This document shows, in pieces, positions 4,615 through 29,669 of a stretch of 64,000 nt of DNA (positions are counted from its first letter, which is position 1; every line of letters begins with the position of its first letter). The notes below the pieces were generated by a model. The model had not been told where the DNA came from. It saw only the letters and a program-made list of their open reading frames with translations, and did not search any database. The position numbers and the translations under genes are program-made. The DNA is from Anaeromyxobacter dehalogenans 2CP-C (GTDB lineage Bacteria; Myxococcota; Myxococcia; Myxococcales; Anaeromyxobacteraceae), in NCBI RefSeq assembly GCF_000013385.1, contig NC_007760.1:124001-188000 (forward strand). Reading direction: 5' to 3'.

Positions 4615-6108
4615 CTACCCCGCGCCTCCGGCCGCGGCGTCCGCGGCGGCGCCGGCCTCGGCGGCCGGCAGGTGGACCCGGAACGTGGCGCCGGCGCCGG
4701 GCGCCCCGGCCACCTCCACCGTGCCGCCGTGCGCCTCGGCGGCCTGGCGCACGATGGCGAGGCCGAGGCCCGTCCCGGTCGCCTTGGTGGTGAAGAACGG
4801 CTCGAACACGTGCGCGGCCGCGTCGGGGTCGATGCCGGGGCCGGTGTCCTGGAACTCGACCACCAGGCCGCCCGGCTCGCGCAGCGCCCGGACGGTGAGC
4901 TTCCCGCCGCGGTCCTGCATGGCCTGCACCGCGTTCACGCCCAGGTTGAGGAAGGCCTGCCGGAGCAGCTCCGCGTCCGCGAGCAGCTCGGGCAGGCCGG
5001 GCTCGACCTCCACCGCGCGCTCCACCTTCGCGTGCGCCGCGGCCGGGCCGAGCACCTCCACCGCCTCGCGCAGGATGGGCTCGACCGGCTGCACCAGCGG
5101 GTGGACCGTGCGCGCCCGCGCGAACACCAGGAAGCGCTCGATGAGCCCGGCGGCCCGGGTCACCTCGCGGCGGATCGCCTCCACGTCGGAGCGGTGCGGC
5201 GAGTCGTCGGGCAGCTCGCGCGAGGTGACCGCGGCGTAGCCGCGGATGACGTTCAGCGAGTTGCCGAGCTCGTGCGCGAACCCGGCCGCGATGCCGCCCA
5301 GCGTGGCCAGCCGGTCGGCGCGCAGCACCTCGCGGGTCTTCTGCGCCACGCGCTCCTCCAGCTCGGCGATGAGCCGCTGGTTCTCGGCGCGCCGCTCGTC
5401 GAGCCGGGCGGACATGTGGTTGAAGGCGCGGACGAGGTCCACCAGCTCCCGGTCCTCGGGCTCCTCCAGGCGGACGCCGCGCTCCTCGGCGAGCGACTCG
5501 GCCGCGCTGGCGAGCGAGACGAGCGGCTGCGTCACCTGGCGGATGAAGATGGCCGCGAGCAGGTGCCCGAGCGCGATCCAGAACGCCGCCACCGCCGCCG
5601 CGCCCCAGGCGAGGTCGCGGGCGGCGCCCACCACCTCCTCGTGCGTGAAGTCCACCCGCACCGCGCCCACCACCGCGCCGGCGCGCACGATGGGCGCGGA
5701 GGCGACGATGCCCTCCGGCCGCACCAGGCGCGAGAGCGTCTGCAGCGGCCAGTCCGCCGCCTGGAACTCGGTCGGCGGCACGCCGTCGGGGCAGGGCTCG
5801 CCGGTCCGCGACACGCACGCGAGCACCTTGCCGGCGGAGTCCACGATCCAGGCGCGGTCGAGCGGGGCGGAGGAGACCAGCCGCTCGAGGAGCGCCGGCA
5901 GCGCCTCCGGGCCGCCCGGGTCCACCCCGCCCTCGCGCACCCAGTGCGAGGCGCCGGTGGCGGTGGTCGAGGCGAGCGCCACGCCCTCGCGGAGCAGGAG
6001 CTCCTGCCCGCGCACCAGCTCGCGCCAGAGCGCCACCGCGGTCACGCCGGACATGGCGAAGATGATCACGCCGGCGATGAGCACGAACAGCTTGAGGCGC
6101 AGCGTCAT
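4615..6108 (-). CDS. Membrane sensor histidine kinase
   Basis: 497 aa. One N-terminal transmembrane helix (about 5-28), an extracytoplasmic sensor of about 130 residues with two Cys in CVSRTGEPC (about 98-106), a second helix (about 165-188), HAMP, a short coiled coil, then HisKA with His279 in GFAHELGNSLN. HATPase motifs are the N-box (LGVNAVQAM), DTGPGI, PFFTTK and GTGLGLAI. The start overlaps the cytochrome stop as ATGA at 6105-6108, and the regulator begins 2 nt after its stop, so cytochrome, kinase and regulator are one transcript. The signal is unknown; the linkage suggests periplasmic redox or electron-acceptor sensing. Confidence 0.95.
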   Translation of the reverse strand: MTLRLKLFVLIAGVIIFAMSGVTAVALWRELVRGQELLLREGVALASTTATGASHWVREGGVDPGGPEALPALLERLVSSAPLDRAWIVDSAGKVLACVSRTGEPCPDGVPPTEFQAADWPLQTLSRLVRPEGIVASAPIVRAGAVVGAVRVDFTHEEVVGAARDLAWGAAAVAAFWIALGHLLAAIFIRQVTQPLVSLASAAESLAEERGVRLEEPEDRELVDLVRAFNHMSARLDERRAENQRLIAELEERVAQKTREVLRADRLATLGGIAAGFAHELGNSLNVIRGYAAVTSRELPDDSPHRSDVEAIRREVTRAAGLIERFLVFARARTVHPLVQPVEPILREAVEVLGPAAAHAKVERAVEVEPGLPELLADAELLRQAFLNLGVNAVQAMQDRGGKLTVRALREPGGLVVEFQDTGPGIDPDAAAHVFEPFFTTKATGTGLGLAIVRQAAEAHGGTVEVAGAPGAGATFRVHLPAAEAGAAADAAAGGAG

Positions 6109-23943: not shown

Positions 23944-24038
23944 GACCGGCGCGGTGCGCCGCCGGCGAGCGTCCCGGCGCCGGCTCCCCGCGGCCGGGGC
24001 GCGCAAATTTGGCAGGAGGCTTCCGGGCCGACCCGCAT

Positions 24039-24044
24039 TATGCT
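24039..24044 (+). promoter_or_regulatory. -10 box TATGCT before the uracil phosphoribosyltransferase-like gene
   Basis: Ends 8 nt before the GTG at 24053; no Shine-Dalgarno sequence. A leaderless or nearly leaderless transcript is implied. Confidence 0.45.
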
Positions 24045-24052
24045 CCCGGCCC

Positions 24053-24868
24053 GTGCGAGACCTGAGCTACGACCACGTCCCCTACCGGATGAGCGAGATC
24101 GAGCACCGGTACGGCGAGAACGTCCACATCGTCGCGAACCCCTTCCTGCTCGGCGCGCTCGCGACGCTGTGCTCGAAGGAGACCCGCCAGCCGGCCATCA
24201 ACCGTCTGGTCCGGCTGCTGTACGAGGACCTCATCCGCACCGTGATGAACCACGAGTTCCCGCGGCGCCGGGTGGCGGTCCCCACCCGCATGATCGACAG
24301 CTCGCCGCAGGCGATCTTCGAGGGCGAGGTGGTGGACCGGCAGGTGCGCGCGGTGACGGTGAACATCGCCCGCGCCGGCGCGGTGCCGTCGCAGCTCGTC
24401 TACGACCTGCTGAACGAGACGCTCGAGCCGTCGCTGGTCCGCCAGGACCACATCATCATGAGCCGGATGCTGGGCGAGAACGAGGAGGTCGTGGGCGCCG
24501 GCATCGGCGGGATGAAGATCGGCGGGGACGTGGACGACGCGTTCCTGCTGTTCCCCGACCCGATGGGCGCGACCGGCTCGTCGCTCGCGACCGCCATCGA
24601 GACCTACAAGAAGAAGGTGCCCGGCAAGGCGAGGCGGATCGTGAACATCCACCTCATCGTCACCCCCGAGTACCTGCGCAACATGACGAAAGCCCACCCC
24701 GACGTGCGGATCTACGCGATCCGGCTCGACCGCGGCCTCTCCCCGCCCGACGTCCTCGCCACCGTCCCCGGCACGCGCTGGGACGAGGAGCGCGGGCTCG
24801 ACGACCACCAGTACATCGTCCCCGGGGGCGGCGGCTTCGGGGAGATCATGAACAACGCCTATGTCTAG
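24053..24868 (+). CDS. Uracil phosphoribosyltransferase-like protein
   Basis: 271 aa from GTG (VRDLSYDHVPYRMSEIEHRYG). The C-terminal two thirds have the PRTase fold with the UPRTase arrangement: LLYEDLIRTVMN, VPTRMIDSSP, the loop FPDPMGATGSSLATAI (equivalent to DPMLATGGS that grips PRPP) and a terminal GGGGFGEIMNNAY in place of GxGDxGDR. It is longer than a typical UPRTase (about 210 aa). It overlaps hpt by 8 nt, so uracil and hypoxanthine/guanine salvage appear coupled. A start at ATG 24089 is possible, but the GTG is well placed after a TATGCT box. Confidence 0.85.
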   Translation: MRDLSYDHVPYRMSEIEHRYGENVHIVANPFLLGALATLCSKETRQPAINRLVRLLYEDLIRTVMNHEFPRRRVAVPTRMIDSSPQAIFEGEVVDRQVRAVTVNIARAGAVPSQLVYDLLNETLEPSLVRQDHIIMSRMLGENEEVVGAGIGGMKIGGDVDDAFLLFPDPMGATGSSLATAIETYKKKVPGKARRIVNIHLIVTPEYLRNMTKAHPDVRIYAIRLDRGLSPPDVLATVPGTRWDEERGLDDHQYIVPGGGGFGEIMNNAYV

Positions 24869-25388
24869 CAGCCGCGCCGGCCTCGACGTGCTCATCTCCG
24901 AGGCGGACCTCCGGGCCCGCGTCGAGCAGATGGGCGCCGACGTCACCCGCGACTACGCGGGGAAGAACCTCGTCGTCATCGGCGTGCTGAAGGGCAGCTT
25001 CATCTTCCTCGCCGACCTGGTGCGCGCCATCGACCTGCCGCTGTCGGTGGACTTCATCGGCATCAGCTCGTACCAGGGCACGCGCACCACCGGCGTCGTC
25101 CAGATCACGAGCGACCTGACCCGGCCCATCGACGGCAAGGACGTGCTGCTCGTCGAGGACATCATCGACACCGGCCTCACCATGCGGTACCTGCTCGAGA
25201 ACCTCTCCACCCGCAAGCCGGCCAGCGTGCGGATCGCGGCGCTGCTCGAGAAGCCGGCGCGGGCGCAGGTGAAGATCCCCATCGACTACCGCGGCTTCGT
25301 CATCGGCGACGAGTTCGTGGTGGGCTACGGGCTCGACTGGGACGGCAAGATGCGGAACCTGCCGTTCATCGGCGTTCCGCGAAAGTAG
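24861..25388 (+). CDS. hpt: Hypoxanthine phosphoribosyltransferase
   Basis: 175 aa, standard length. PRTase signatures: VVIGVLKGSFIFLADLVRAI, the PRPP-binding loop VLLVEDIIDTGLTMRYLL (ED-DIIDTG), and VGYGLDWDGKMRNLPFIGV, the base-binding C terminus. It converts hypoxanthine and guanine to IMP and GMP using PRPP. Translation overlaps the upstream phosphoribosyltransferase gene by 8 nt. The two share the substrate PRPP made by Prs, coded nearby on the other strand. Confidence 0.97.
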   Translation: MSSSRAGLDVLISEADLRARVEQMGADVTRDYAGKNLVVIGVLKGSFIFLADLVRAIDLPLSVDFIGISSYQGTRTTGVVQITSDLTRPIDGKDVLLVEDIIDTGLTMRYLLENLSTRKPASVRIAALLEKPARAQVKIPIDYRGFVIGDEFVVGYGLDWDGKMRNLPFIGVPRK

Positions 25389-25406: not shown

Positions 25407-26213
25407 ATGGCGGACGAGACCACGCGCGCGCGCGCCGGATCCGGCGCGAAGGCGCTGCTCGCCTGGGTGGCCATCCTGGGCCTCGCCGGCGTGGTGGCGT
25501 GGCTCGCCTCCGAGCGGAACGCGCGCACCTGGTACCTGGTGCCGGACGAGGGCCGGCTGGTGGTGATGAAGGGGCTCATGCTGCCGGTGGGGCGGCAGGC
25601 GTTCGCCACCGACGACCCGGCGCTCGCCGCCGCCTACGCGCCGCTCGTGCCGCCGCCGGGGAAGCCGCTCCCGGCCGAGCGCGCCTTCGAGGAGCGGAGC
25701 CTGCTCGACCAGGGGCTGTTCGACCTGCTCGCCGGCTGGGCGCGGGAGGAGGTCGCCACCGGCGACCCGGCCCGCCTCGAGCGCGGCCTCGGGTACCTCG
25801 GGCGCGCCGAGCGGCTGGCCGGGATCTCCCCGGCGCAGCGCGACGAGCTCGGCGCCATCCGCGCCGAGTCCGGCTACCACGAGGCGCGGCGGCTGCTGGA
25901 GCGCGCCGCCGCCGAGCTGCGCGACGCCGCCGAGAAGCTCCGGGTCACCGCCGGCTCCCGCTCGTCCCGCGCCATGGACGCGCAGCTGCTCCTGAAGCAG
26001 CTCGAGCCCGCGGTGGACGCCACCCTCGGCGCGATCCGCACCGCGGCCAGGGCCGAGCCCGCCGCCGCGGAGCAGGGCGCCGGGACGCCGCCCGCCGCGG
26101 GCGAGCCGGCCCCCGCCGCCGCCCCGGCGCCGGATCACGCGCCGGCCGCCCCGCCGGCCGCCGCGCCCGCCGGGCCGGCCGCCCAGCTGCCCCCGTCCGG
26201 CGAGGGGCGGTAG
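25407..26213 (+). CDS. Membrane-anchored protein of unknown function
   Basis: 268 aa. After a basic N terminus comes one transmembrane helix (ALLAWVAILGLAGVVAWLA, about 17-35), so most of the protein is probably periplasmic. It continues with WYLVPDEGRLVVMKGLMLPVGRQAF, then an Ala/Glu/Arg-rich helical region (about 75-205) that may form helical repeats, and ends in a disordered Ala/Pro tail. GGAGGAC lies 9 nt before the ATG. It is 18 nt after hpt and so may be read with it. No family recognised; WYLVPDEGRLVVMKG is seen in conserved hypothetical proteins of myxobacteria as far as I recall, which I cannot verify. Confidence 0.75.
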   Translation: MADETTRARAGSGAKALLAWVAILGLAGVVAWLASERNARTWYLVPDEGRLVVMKGLMLPVGRQAFATDDPALAAAYAPLVPPPGKPLPAERAFEERSLLDQGLFDLLAGWAREEVATGDPARLERGLGYLGRAERLAGISPAQRDELGAIRAESGYHEARRLLERAAAELRDAAEKLRVTAGSRSSRAMDAQLLLKQLEPAVDATLGAIRTAARAEPAAAEQGAGTPPAAGEPAPAAAPAPDHAPAAPPAAAPAGPAAQLPPSGEGR

Positions 26214-26284: not shown

Positions 26285-29128
26285 ATGGCCTCCTTTCACG
26301 CCCGGAACGGCACCGGCGAGCTGCTCGCGCGCTACGCGTTCGTCGAGCCCCTCCTCGAGGGACGGCGGATCCTCGAGATCGGCGCGGCGGCCGCCACCGA
26401 GGGGGCGACCGCCGGCTTCCTCGCCGAGCGGGGCGCGGCCGAGGTCGTGTCCATCGAGGAGGACGGCGCCGCGCTCGGCGCCGCGGCGCGCGGGCCGCAC
26501 GCACCCTACGTGCAGTTCCGCGCGGCCCGCCCCGAGGACCTGCCCGCCGGCGCCTTCGACGTGGTGCTGCTCGCCGACGGCGCGGCGCTCGCCGCCGACC
26601 CCGGCCGCGCCGCGGCGCTGGCGCGCCTGCTCGCGCCGGGCGGCCGGCTCGTCACCGCGGTGGACGCGGGCGGACCGGGCCTCGCCGATCTCGCCGGCGA
26701 GCCGCGCGGCGCGGCGCCGCCGGGGTACGAGGCGTTCGTGGGCGCGCTGGTGGGCCGCTTCCCGCAGGTGGAGGTGGCGGCGCAGTCGGCCACGCTGGGC
26801 TGGGTGTTCGGGATGGGCGGCGGCTCCGGCGAGGAGCCGGAGCTGTCCATGGACGGCTCGCTCGCCGGGACCGCCGAGACGGCGGCGTACGTGGCGGTGT
26901 GCGGCGACGCGCCCTGCGGGCTGTCGGGCTTCACGCTGGTGGCGCTGCCGGCGGGGCCGCTCCTCGAGGAGGGCGCGGCCGGCGCGGCCTCCGCCGCGGT
27001 GCGGGCGCTCGCCGCCGACGCGCTGCGCGAGCGGGCCGAGGCGCTCGCGGCCCGCGATCTCGCGCTCGGCGAGCGCGACGAGGCCGCCGAGGAGCGCGAG
27101 CGGCTCCGCGCCGAGCTGGACGCGGCCGTCGCCGCCGGGGTGGACGCCGCGCGCGCCCGGGACCGCGTGCTCGCCGAGGCCGCCGCGGATCGCGACCGCG
27201 CCGCGCGCGCCGAGCAGGCGGCCGCGGCCGCCGCCGACGCGCGGGACGCGGCGCTCGCCGCCCGCGAGGCGCTCGCGCGCGAGCTGGACGCGATCCGGGC
27301 GGGCGTGGACGACCTGCGCCGCTCGCGCGAGGCGGTGGAGGCGGAGGTGGACCGCCTCCGCGCCGGCGCCGAGCTGGGCGACGCGCGGGCGCGGGAGCTG
27401 GAGGCGATGCTCGACGCCGAGCGCGGCGGCGCGGCGGACGCGCGGGCCGAGCTGGAGCGGGCCGAGGTCGTGATCGCGGAGCGCACCCACGAGCTCGCCG
27501 AGGCGCGGGCCGCGCTCGCGACCCAGGCCGGGGCGGTGGCGCAGGCGGACGAGGCCCGCGCGCGGGCCGACGCCGCGCTGGCCGAGCGGCGCGAGGCGGC
27601 GGCGGAGGCCGAGGCGGCGCTGCAGGCGGCGCGCTCCGAGGCGCAGGCGGCCAAGGCCGCGCTGGAGGCGGCGCTGGAGCGCGCCTCGGTGGGCGAGGCC
27701 CGGCTGCCGGAGCTGGAGGAGGCGCTGGAGGCCCGCGCGCACGAGGCGGCGGAGGCGGAGGCGGCGCTGCGCGAGGCGCGCGACCGGATCGCGGCGCTGG
27801 AGGCCGAGGCGGAGCGCGGCCGCGAGGCGCTGGCCGAGGCGCGCGCGGCGGAGGAGGTGGCGCGCCTCGACGCGGGCTCGGCCCGGGCCGAGGCCGGCCG
27901 GGCGCTGGTGGACGCCGAGGCGGCGCGCGAGGAGGCGGGGCGCCTGGCCGGCGAGCTCCGGAGCGCCGAGGCCGCCCGCGCGCAGGCCGCCGCGGAGGCG
28001 GAGCCGCTGCGCGCCGAGGCCGACGCGGCCCGCGCGCGCGCCGAGCGGCTCGCCGGGGAGGCGGAGGCCGCGCGCGCCGTCCTCGTCGAGCGGGAGCGCG
28101 CCGACGCGGCGCGCGACGCCGAGCTGCGCGAGGCGGCCGAGGCGCGGGCCGAGGCGCTCGCCGCGGGCGCGGGCGAGGTGGAGCAGCTCACCGCCGCGCT
28201 GGCCGGCGCGGCGGCCGCGGCCGGGGAGGCCGCCGCGGTGCGCGAGGCGCTCGAGGCGCGGGTCGCCGAGCTGGAGGCGCGGCTGGAGAGCGAGGCGGAG
28301 CGGGCGCACCTGGTGGAGGCGCGCGCGGCGGAGGCGCTGGCGCGCCTCGAGGGGCTGGAGGAGGCCGGCGCCGCGCACGAGGCGGAGCAGGGCGCGGCGG
28401 TCCGGACGGCCGAGGCGCGCGCGGAGCAGGCGGAGGCGGCCGCCCGCGCGGCGGAGGCCCGCGCCGCCGCGGCCGAGGCCCGCCCGGCGACGCCGGCGCG
28501 AGACGCCGGGCTGGAGGCGGAGCTCGCCGCCGCCCGGAGCGCCGCCGACGTGGCCGGGGCGCAGGCGGCGGAGCTCGAGGCCGAGCTGCAGGCGGTGCGC
28601 TGGGAGAAGGACGAGATCGAGCAGCGGCTCCAGTCGCTCACCGCCTCGGGCGCGCTGGGCGGGGCCGGCGAGCTGAGCCGGCTCCGCGACGAGCTCGCCG
28701 CGCGCGCGGGCGAGGGCGCGCTCCTGCGCAAGGAGATCCAGCGGCTCGAGGCGCAGGTGGCGGAGCTGACGGCCCGCCCGCTCGCCGCGCCCGCGCCCGC
28801 CGAGGAGGCGGAGGCGGTCCGCCGGGCCGCCGCCCGCGCCGCGGAGCTGGAGGACCGGCTCGCCGAGGCGCTCCGGCGCGCCGCCGACGCGGAGGCCGCC
28901 GCCGAGGCGGCCCGGGCCGCGCCGGCGCCCTTGCCGGCCGCCGCGCCGGGCGAGGCGCTGAAGCGCGCCGCGCAGGAGAAGGACGCGATCGCCGCGCAGG
29001 TCGCCGAGCGCGACCAGAAGATCGCGCGGCTGCAGCGCGAGGTGGCCGACAAGACCGAGCGGCTGGGCCGGCTCGCCAAGGAGATGGGCGAGCTGAAGGC
29101 GCGCGGCTTCGGCAAGATCTTCCGCTAG
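26285..29128 (+). CDS. Methyltransferase-like N-terminal domain fused to a very long coiled coil
   Basis: 947 aa. Residues about 1-220 look like a class I SAM methyltransferase (LLEGRRILEIGAAAATEGATAGFLAERG for motif I, VVSIEEDGAAL for the ribose acid, FDVVLLADG and ARLLAPGGRLV for later motifs). However the glycine-rich loop is degenerate (EIGAAAATEG), so activity is doubtful. From about 235 to 860 almost every residue is Ala, Glu, Arg, Leu, Asp or Gln in heptads, predicting a coiled coil near 90 nm if continuous. The end is Lys-rich (LGRLAKEMGELKARGFGKIFR). The plan recalls myxobacterial scaffold proteins with a globular head and coiled-coil tail such as AglZ or FrzS, but with a different head. 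A PilZ gene follows by 13 nt. Confidence 0.8.
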   Translation: MASFHARNGTGELLARYAFVEPLLEGRRILEIGAAAATEGATAGFLAERGAAEVVSIEEDGAALGAAARGPHAPYVQFRAARPEDLPAGAFDVVLLADGAALAADPGRAAALARLLAPGGRLVTAVDAGGPGLADLAGEPRGAAPPGYEAFVGALVGRFPQVEVAAQSATLGWVFGMGGGSGEEPELSMDGSLAGTAETAAYVAVCGDAPCGLSGFTLVALPAGPLLEEGAAGAASAAVRALAADALRERAEALAARDLALGERDEAAEERERLRAELDAAVAAGVDAARARDRVLAEAAADRDRAARAEQAAAAAADARDAALAAREALARELDAIRAGVDDLRRSREAVEAEVDRLRAGAELGDARARELEAMLDAERGGAADARAELERAEVVIAERTHELAEARAALATQAGAVAQADEARARADAALAERREAAAEAEAALQAARSEAQAAKAALEAALERASVGEARLPELEEALEARAHEAAEAEAALREARDRIAALEAEAERGREALAEARAAEEVARLDAGSARAEAGRALVDAEAAREEAGRLAGELRSAEAARAQAAAEAEPLRAEADAARARAERLAGEAEAARAVLVERERADAARDAELREAAEARAEALAAGAGEVEQLTAALAGAAAAAGEAAAVREALEARVAELEARLESEAERAHLVEARAAEALARLEGLEEAGAAHEAEQGAAVRTAEARAEQAEAAARAAEARAAAAEARPATPARDAGLEAELAAARSAADVAGAQAAELEAELQAVRWEKDEIEQRLQSLTASGALGGAGELSRLRDELAARAGEGALLRKEIQRLEAQVAELTARPLAAPAPAEEAEAVRRAAARAAELEDRLAEALRRAADAEAAAEAARAAPAPLPAAAPGEALKRAAQEKDAIAAQVAERDQKIARLQREVADKTERLGRLAKEMGELKARGFGKIFR

Positions 29129-29141
29129 GGGAATCCGCACC

Positions 29142-29669
29142 GTGACCGAGCCACGCCGCTACGAGCGCATCGACGTCGAGCTTCCCTGCCGCCTGTACAT
29201 CCCCGGCGAGCGCGGCCTCAAGTTCGAGGCCCACTGCACCTCGCGCAACCTCGGGCTGGGCGGCGTGTTCCTCTCCTCCTCGTTCCTGCTGCGCGAGGGG
29301 CTGGAGCTGTTCGTCGAGCTGGGGCTGCCGGGCGGCCCGCTCGCGATCCGCGCCCGGGTGGCGCACACGGTGCCGGGCGACGACCCGGAGCTCGAGGCCG
29401 GCTTCGGCGTCGAGTTCCTGGACGTGGACGCGGCCGGGCGCGAGACCTTGCTCCGCTACTTCACCCCGCTCCGCTACCACGAGTTCTACCGCGCGTTCGC
29501 CGGGGAGTTCCCGCACCTGCGCGAGCGCGTGCCGGTGGCCGACGTGGCCCTGCTCCTCAACCTCTGGGAGGAGTGGAAGGTCCGGGGCGAGGGAGGCCCG
29601 GCCTTCACGGCGTCGGGCGCGCCGCCGGCGCCGGCGAGGGCCGGCGCCGCACGCCGCGCCCGACGCTAG
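29142..29669 (+). CDS. PilZ-domain protein
   Basis: 175 aa, GTG start. The first 110 residues form a PilZ domain. RRYERIDVELPCRLYI carries the R-x3-R element (Arg5 and Arg9) that binds cyclic di-GMP; the second element reads NLGLGGVFL where binders have (D/N)-x-S-x-x-G, so the Ser is Gly, as in some weak or altered binders. A C-terminal segment (LLNLWEEWKVRGEGG) ends in an Ala/Pro-rich tail. It lies 13 nt after the methyltransferase/coiled-coil gene, probably in one transcript, suggesting that the coiled-coil protein acts in a c-di-GMP-responsive envelope or motility process. A diguanylate cyclase is encoded at 32086. Confidence 0.88.
   Translation: MTEPRRYERIDVELPCRLYIPGERGLKFEAHCTSRNLGLGGVFLSSSFLLREGLELFVELGLPGGPLAIRARVAHTVPGDDPELEAGFGVEFLDVDAAGRETLLRYFTPLRYHEFYRAFAGEFPHLRERVPVADVALLLNLWEEWKVRGEGGPAFTASGAPPAPARAGAARRARR

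Follow-up and report, generated by a model that had tools for sequence, protein, structure and literature searches.

We analyzed a window of 64,000 nucleotides from Anaeromyxobacter dehalogenans 2CP-C (contig NC_007760.1, positions 124,001 to 188,000; the host genome is a single contig of 5,013,479 bases), in which an open reading frame on the forward strand (26285-29128, with an ATG start at 26285) encodes a protein of 947 amino acids. This is a real gene, and its product is one member of an unnamed myxobacterial family that combines a methyltransferase-like head with a helical rod of very variable length. Our preferred interpretation, held at somewhat short of even confidence, is that the protein is a cytoplasmic scaffold or tether headed by a pseudo-enzyme. 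Three parts can be told apart, all on the forward strand: a head (residues 1-228; 26285-26968) with a class I S-adenosylmethionine (SAM) methyltransferase-type fold and a degenerate glycine-rich loop (LEIGAAAATEGATA); a helical, coiled-coil-like tail rich in Ala, Glu, Arg and Leu (residues 229-902; 26969-28990), which is interrupted by prolines, variable in length and poorly conserved; and a C-terminal tip (residues 903-947; 28991-29125), which contains QREVADKTERLGRLAKEMGELK and is conserved within its own family. Below, the letters f, g, G and L label families, genera, genomes and loci, and f1 holds the Anaeromyxobacter genomes.

The head has the class I SAM-dependent methyltransferase fold by sequence, profile and structure comparison. 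Residues 1-228 scanned alone match Methyltransf_11 (PF08241) with an E-value of 2e-6 and 28.8 bits, above the cut-off of 21.2, and a profile built from 34 heads finds methyltransferases in the PDB (best match 2avn, 4.7e-12), with a few other Rossmann-type proteins ranked lower. Nearly all of the PDB matches stop by about position 135 (3c3p extends to 171), so that the remainder of the head is family-specific; this C-terminal extension closes with an AYVAVCG...LVALP block. Among the best 50 Foldseek matches of the head model, most were methyltransferases, complexes with SAM or S-adenosylhomocysteine, and spermidine synthases (best E 1.4e-5), although TM-scores were low (0.27-0.43 by query) and root-mean-square deviations large. 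The best NCBIfam match was the DVU_1556 family methyltransferase (NF045667, E 1.2e-6), but its 28.1 bits fall far below the cut-off of 155, and no receiver family matched the head in the Pfam or NCBIfam scans.

In place of the E/DxGxGxG SAM loop, the window head reads LEIGAAAATEGA, and its loop exceeds that of the canonical-loop heads by about 3 residues. A canonical glycine-rich loop was found in three of the 42 aligned heads (L067, L072 and L076), with a relaxed form in four more; the loop region is likewise about 3 residues longer in heads of f1, f2, f4, f6, f9 and f10 than in the others, and the f11 heads read GCGDG (L067, L072) or nearly so. The first-pass annotation of this DNA had called the fold a degenerate SAM-methyltransferase: the Pfam and PDB profile matches bear out the fold, and the degeneracy holds for the glycine-rich loop. 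L076 (in G010) is probably not orthologous to the other heads and probably represents a separate architecture, an open frame of 1131 residues with a methyltransferase head, an intact GxGxG and, by eye, a glycosyltransferase-like C-terminus.

Between close relatives the head is under strong purifying selection, with ratios of nonsynonymous to synonymous substitution rates (dN/dS) of 0.05-0.16. In three f4 pairs (two of which share L054) dN/dS was 0.05 for the head against 0.21-0.25 for the tail, and in the closest Anaeromyxobacter pair 0.16 against 0.29. Identity tells the same story for the L055-L054 pair, at 86% in the head and 48% in the faster-diverging tail.

Counted from residue 236, the tail of the window protein comprises 712 amino acids (36% Ala, 17% Glu, 14% Arg, 10% Leu). 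Its hydrophobic power peaks at 3.5 residues, modestly (z = 2.9 against 200 shuffles); nine relatives gave z values of 3.5-15.0 at their peaks, which lie at 3.5 residues in 9 of the 10 proteins tested and at 3.6 in L054. The tail contains 11 prolines, and its longest proline-free stretch is 249 amino acids. A previous description, which gave the heptad-rich sequence as unbroken over more than 600 residues, therefore stands as to a long helical tail with a 3.5-residue period but not as to its being unbroken or strongly periodic. The SMC model TIGR02168 scored 30.4 bits over the coil region 744-938, against a cut-off of 567.35. Tail length ranges from 133 to 2023 amino acids in 35 proteins and varies even within genera: 606-770 in g1 (a spread of 164), 1807-2023 in g23 (216) and 1807-1994 in g26 (187).

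The tip behaves differently from the tail. In five pairs within f1, its identity (73-100%) exceeds that of the head (57-94%) and of the tail (44-90%); tip and head are 100 and 94% identical for L045, 81 and 71% for L043, 84 and 67% for L047, 73 and 59% for L049, and 76 and 57% for L050. A pattern search also found a tip-like motif near the C-terminus of one member each of f9, f11, f13 and f24; the pattern was chosen after the sequences had been seen, so these matches are a lead. Constraint on the head, combined with a loose, length-variable rod and a tip conserved in this family, forms the pattern expected of a tether or scaffold.

The architecture of a head followed by a long tail recurs across the phylum and is thus more than a chance find. 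We searched for the head within Myxococcota; beyond the phylum, coverage came from a scan of genome contigs that finds close relatives only, and it returned two Anaeromyxobacter loci (A. oryzae and A. oryzisoli). A search with the single head matches 156 of 195 Myxococcota genomes at E ≤0.001, the weak matches including other methyltransferases, and the 34-head profile at 1e-15 matches 33 of 45 chosen Myxococcota genomes. The head-bearing genomes span about 2 to 13 Mb. One of them, G025, carries two heads (C201:30651-31310 and C182:59805-60452). Among the open-access papers listed for such a protein, none concerned it by title, which is weak evidence given that scope.

Upstream of the head gene, on the same strand, lies a gene for a putative single-pass membrane protein (25407-26213), for which inspection by eye and a low-confidence model both indicate a hydrophobic helix at about residues 12-38, with a helical region at about residues 94-223. 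The product matched neither a Pfam family at E 0.1 nor any NCBIfam family, and Foldseek with its model gave no useful match (best E 0.52). The gene is a conserved neighbor of the head gene in seven families (f1, f3, f4, f6, f9, f27 and f31), divergent from it in f4 and in the same orientation in the other six. It is on the head's contig for 18 of 31 heads from 30 genomes, with gaps of 33-1939 nucleotides, and the membrane-protein family occurs in 35 of 45 genomes searched. The gene order farther upstream is also conserved, with a UPRTase-family gene (23954-24868, +) and a phosphoribosyltransferase gene (24861-25388, +) that we take to be Hpt; both lie upstream of the head in several families, among them f24 and f25, which lack the membrane-protein gene there.

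Genes of the cyclic di-GMP (c-di-GMP) type also accompany the head. At 11 of 22 loci, a GGDEF or PilZ domain is encoded no more than 5 kb from the head gene, against about 1.4 loci expected, a statistic that counts related loci as separate; by family, 6 of 13 have such a neighbor. The expectation is a sum of per-locus values from genome background counts (the count of G000 being used for its close relative G004, locus L045), flanks were shorter than 10 kb for L062, L082, L083 and L084, and of 19 known own-genome loci the PilZ model found 18. The neighbors appear to fall into three arrangements: PilZ with FHA-GGDEF in f1, receiver-GGDEF in f4, f6 and f10, and GAF-GGDEF upstream of the head in f24 and f25. 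Downstream of the head in f4 and f10 stand dapF and genes for a receiver-GGDEF and a receiver-DUF4388 protein; the latter two are also present at the two f6 loci, weakly so in L077, and the receiver-GGDEF genes of the three families are related to each other, again weakly for L077. The same trio is found away from the head in G000, G031, G065 and G192, so that f4 and f10 may simply have inherited an order that keeps it close. By pattern, we found no typical GGDEF motif in the receiver- or GAF-type domains of L054, L065, L066 and L077, and the motif is altered in L062 and L059 and looks altered in the f4 and f10 trio copies checked, from which we predict that these domains are probably not active cyclases. 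In f2, an HD-GYP gene near the head (HD...HHERWDGAGYP) was left out of the count and has no background count. Overall, the linkage of the head to c-di-GMP-type genes is suggestive but not proven, and is weakened by shared ancestry.

The window itself has a PilZ gene (29142-29669, +; 175 amino acids) that starts with GTG 13 nucleotides past the stop of the 947-amino-acid gene, a spacing that the first-pass annotation had given correctly. The domain is clear (Pfam 2.9e-14, 53.7 bits against a cut-off of 22.5). A same-strand PilZ gene follows shortly downstream in five relatives (roughly 15-140 nucleotides); among the loci fetched, it is adjacent to the head in L045, L043, L047, L048 and L049 and missing beside the head in L050. 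Among all loci examined, the adjacency is confined to the Anaeromyxobacter family. PilZ orthologues with 53-60% identity in G163, G061, G065, G182, G016 and G009 lie on contigs other than the head's, with no head in the stretches fetched around them, and in the f4 genomes tested PilZ matches were weak (best 8e-12). We therefore rejected PilZ as a conserved partner of the head: the gene is a local, lineage-specific neighbor, and its tight linkage within one genus can mislead about the protein's lasting neighbors. A lasting PilZ-GH57 pair was rejected as well, with neither GH57 nor a head in the stretches fetched around the orthologues of G163, G061, G065 and G182, which lie outside f1, or of G016, which lies inside it (the G009 contig ends just downstream of PilZ, so GH57 cannot be judged there).

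PilZ domains bind c-di-GMP through the motifs RxxxR and D/NxSxxG. RxxxR is present in the window copy, but the second motif reads NxGxxG, and in all 16 copies shown, the window included, it is NLGLGG, DLGLGG or NLCLGG, so that c-di-GMP binding by the PilZ protein is not to be assumed. The earlier appeal to this neighbor is not supported as argued, since PilZ is not the family's lasting association. The anatomy described earlier, a methyltransferase-type head with a degenerate SAM loop ahead of a long helical tail, is right, and a scaffold or tether is still the best reading; the c-di-GMP-type genes near half of the loci lend the earlier c-di-GMP idea some independent support, which shared ancestry weakens. 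Taken as a whole, the earlier observation is partly confirmed and its interpretation partly supported. Members of this PilZ subfamily, with Gly or Cys replacing the Ser of D/NxSxxG, also occur in distant families, away from this locus.

As a scaffold or tether, the protein might work as follows. Its N-terminal domain would have descended from a SAM-dependent methyltransferase, lost the canonical cofactor loop and become a docking module, by analogy with the pseudo-receiver of FrzS. The helical tail would oligomerize into a rod, about 100 nm long in this species (719 residues at 0.149 nm each, if continuous), with the tip docking another partner. The 25407-26213 product probably ties one end to the inner membrane, and receiver, GGDEF-like or PilZ proteins from nearby genes probably read or regulate the assembly in several lineages. 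The broader proposal of a widespread, undescribed Myxococcota scaffold family, which gave up catalysis for a docking head on rods free to evolve in length from about 20 to 300 nm, tethers a membrane protein and has repeatedly been drawn into c-di-GMP and receiver signaling, is possible but doubtful. The scaffold reading, if right, would add a new head type, beside receiver-type heads, to the coiled-coil organizers of myxobacterial cells and would be a case of an enzyme fold converted to a docking module; with heads in genomes of such different sizes, work on a single tractable myxobacterium would bear on many others.

Several observations weigh against a pseudo-enzyme-headed, membrane-linked scaffold. 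As to the fold, the whole 947-amino-acid protein matched no Pfam family at E 0.1, and the AlphaFold2 model of the head is of low confidence (pLDDT 50, pTM 0.53, from three sequences); the structure-prediction check that had been proposed for the head is thus favorable in its mostly methyltransferase matches but not in model confidence or TM-scores. In the more distant pair of the window protein and L043, the head has a dN/dS of 0.41 and the tail one of 0.66, and constraint looks weaker. Two f6 genomes have tails of merely 133-189 amino acids, and the f4 tip differs and has no special conservation (37-89% identity, dN/dS 0.15-0.66). The model of the membrane protein suggests that no more than a short N-terminal segment lies to one side of the membrane. 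Its gene was not found in seven head-bearing genomes (G012, G017, G024, G070, G182, G183 and G184), is on another contig for six further heads, and occurs in 12 genomes without a listed head; in G163 the head and membrane-protein genes are both at contig ends. UPRT, Hpt and dapF have the look of housekeeping genes, and the conserved order may thus reflect age rather than function. The c-di-GMP-type neighbors probably stem from only about three independent arrangements, no GGDEF or PilZ domain was found within 5 kb in f2, f9, f11, f13, f17, f27, f31, L058 or L063, and four of the same loci served as seeds for the GGDEF model, the hits at L059, L065 and L077 depending on that model alone.

The head could instead be a working methyltransferase whose remodeled, longer loop still binds SAM and whose rod delivers the enzyme to a signaling or envelope target. 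By eye, many heads retain an acidic residue close to where the second strand ends, f11 heads retain GCGDG or a close form, and the constraint on the head in close pairs would suit an enzyme; however, the loop is non-canonical in 39 of 42 heads, no catalytic motif was identified, and the part of the head beyond the PDB matches is family-specific, so we consider this unlikely. A dispensable accessory gene, with a tail that is a drifting high-GC helix of little function beyond the head, would fit the low tail conservation and the decay of the locus in genus g6 of f1: G013 keeps a head-like gene of 216 amino acids after the membrane-protein gene, in G021 the very next frame after the membrane-protein gene begins with residues that by eye match the GH57 protein, and G018 has a visible shorter head remnant that the profile did not report. 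Yet long tails are retained in many families, and tail dN/dS is 0.21-0.29 in four close pairs, though higher in the window-L043 pair; we judge this idea improbable.

More specific functions can be weighed against known systems. The earlier model, in which the protein would act with the PilZ product next to it as a polar or focal-adhesion scaffold for motility, tuned by c-di-GMP, draws on the close same-strand PilZ genes, on the c-di-GMP-type neighbors of further loci and on T2SSE-family ATPases (type IV pilus or type II secretion) in 8 of 8 genomes tested, four of which are head-bearing genomes of 2.1-2.7 Mb. Against it stand the PilZ adjacency, limited to one family and not universal there, the unlinked orthologues and the altered motif; no known motility family appeared among the Pfam-scanned neighbors, although motility genes were not systematically searched. 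We find this model quite unlikely, and a polar, focal or motility role for the predicted scaffold would be speculative. A parallel in plan is FrzS (with AglZ) of Myxococcus xanthus: according to excerpts of PMC1974792, FrzS works through an unphosphorylated receiver head, a coiled coil and a functional C-terminal tail. The window protein may likewise carry a small non-catalytic regulatory-fold head, followed by a coiled-coil-like tail and by a tip conserved within its family. Its head is of methyltransferase type, and no receiver or pseudo-receiver domain was found in it; the protein resembles FrzS in plan and is not a member of the FrzS family.

A chain-length ruler for surface polysaccharide, in which head and coil gauge distance from the membrane, would resemble WbdD of E. 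coli O9a, where excerpts of PMC5082667 place methyltransferase and kinase domains ahead of a coiled coil. Window genes for a GH57 protein and a galactose-1-phosphate uridyltransferase-type product, both downstream, fit such a role. A polysaccharide ruler should hold its length (excerpts of PMC5082667), whereas rods here vary by about 160-220 amino acids within genera, on which ground we rejected a fixed-length ruler. The window protein also differs from WbdD in its degenerate SAM loop, its neighborhood and its lack of a detected kinase domain after the methyltransferase: Pfam, which in that scan missed the head too, found no kinase or glycosyltransferase family in it, and found none in the 2230-amino-acid relative L054, where the head was detected. 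GH57 stands beside the head in f1 loci only, and we regard a ruler as very improbable. HmpF of cyanobacteria, described in excerpts of PMC12288463 as an SMC-like coiled-coil protein in type IV pilus taxis, is a parallel for its coiled coil, but its model (NCBIfam NF038350) scores the window protein at 17 bits, over the coil only, against a cut-off of 200. A further likeness is that f4, f6 and f10 head genes lie near a receiver-DUF4388 gene. We take DUF4388 to be the PATAN domain of cyanobacterial pilus regulators; no open-access paper linking it with Myxococcus was found.

Downstream of PilZ, the Pfam scan of the window found GH57, FHA-GGDEF and MFS genes. A scan of the locus for promoters and terminators found none, using a sigma-70 consensus that may not suit the host. 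Elsewhere, the dapF, receiver-GGDEF and receiver-DUF4388 trio is grouped in at least five Myxococcota families (L131 6441-10541, L132 6145-10215, L133 5804-9880, L135 946-5806, L054 12706-16963). Two g6 loci, L137 (5125-5775, -) and L136 (about 5420-5860, -), carry head-only or shorter remnants beside the membrane-protein gene and look as if the rod had been lost.

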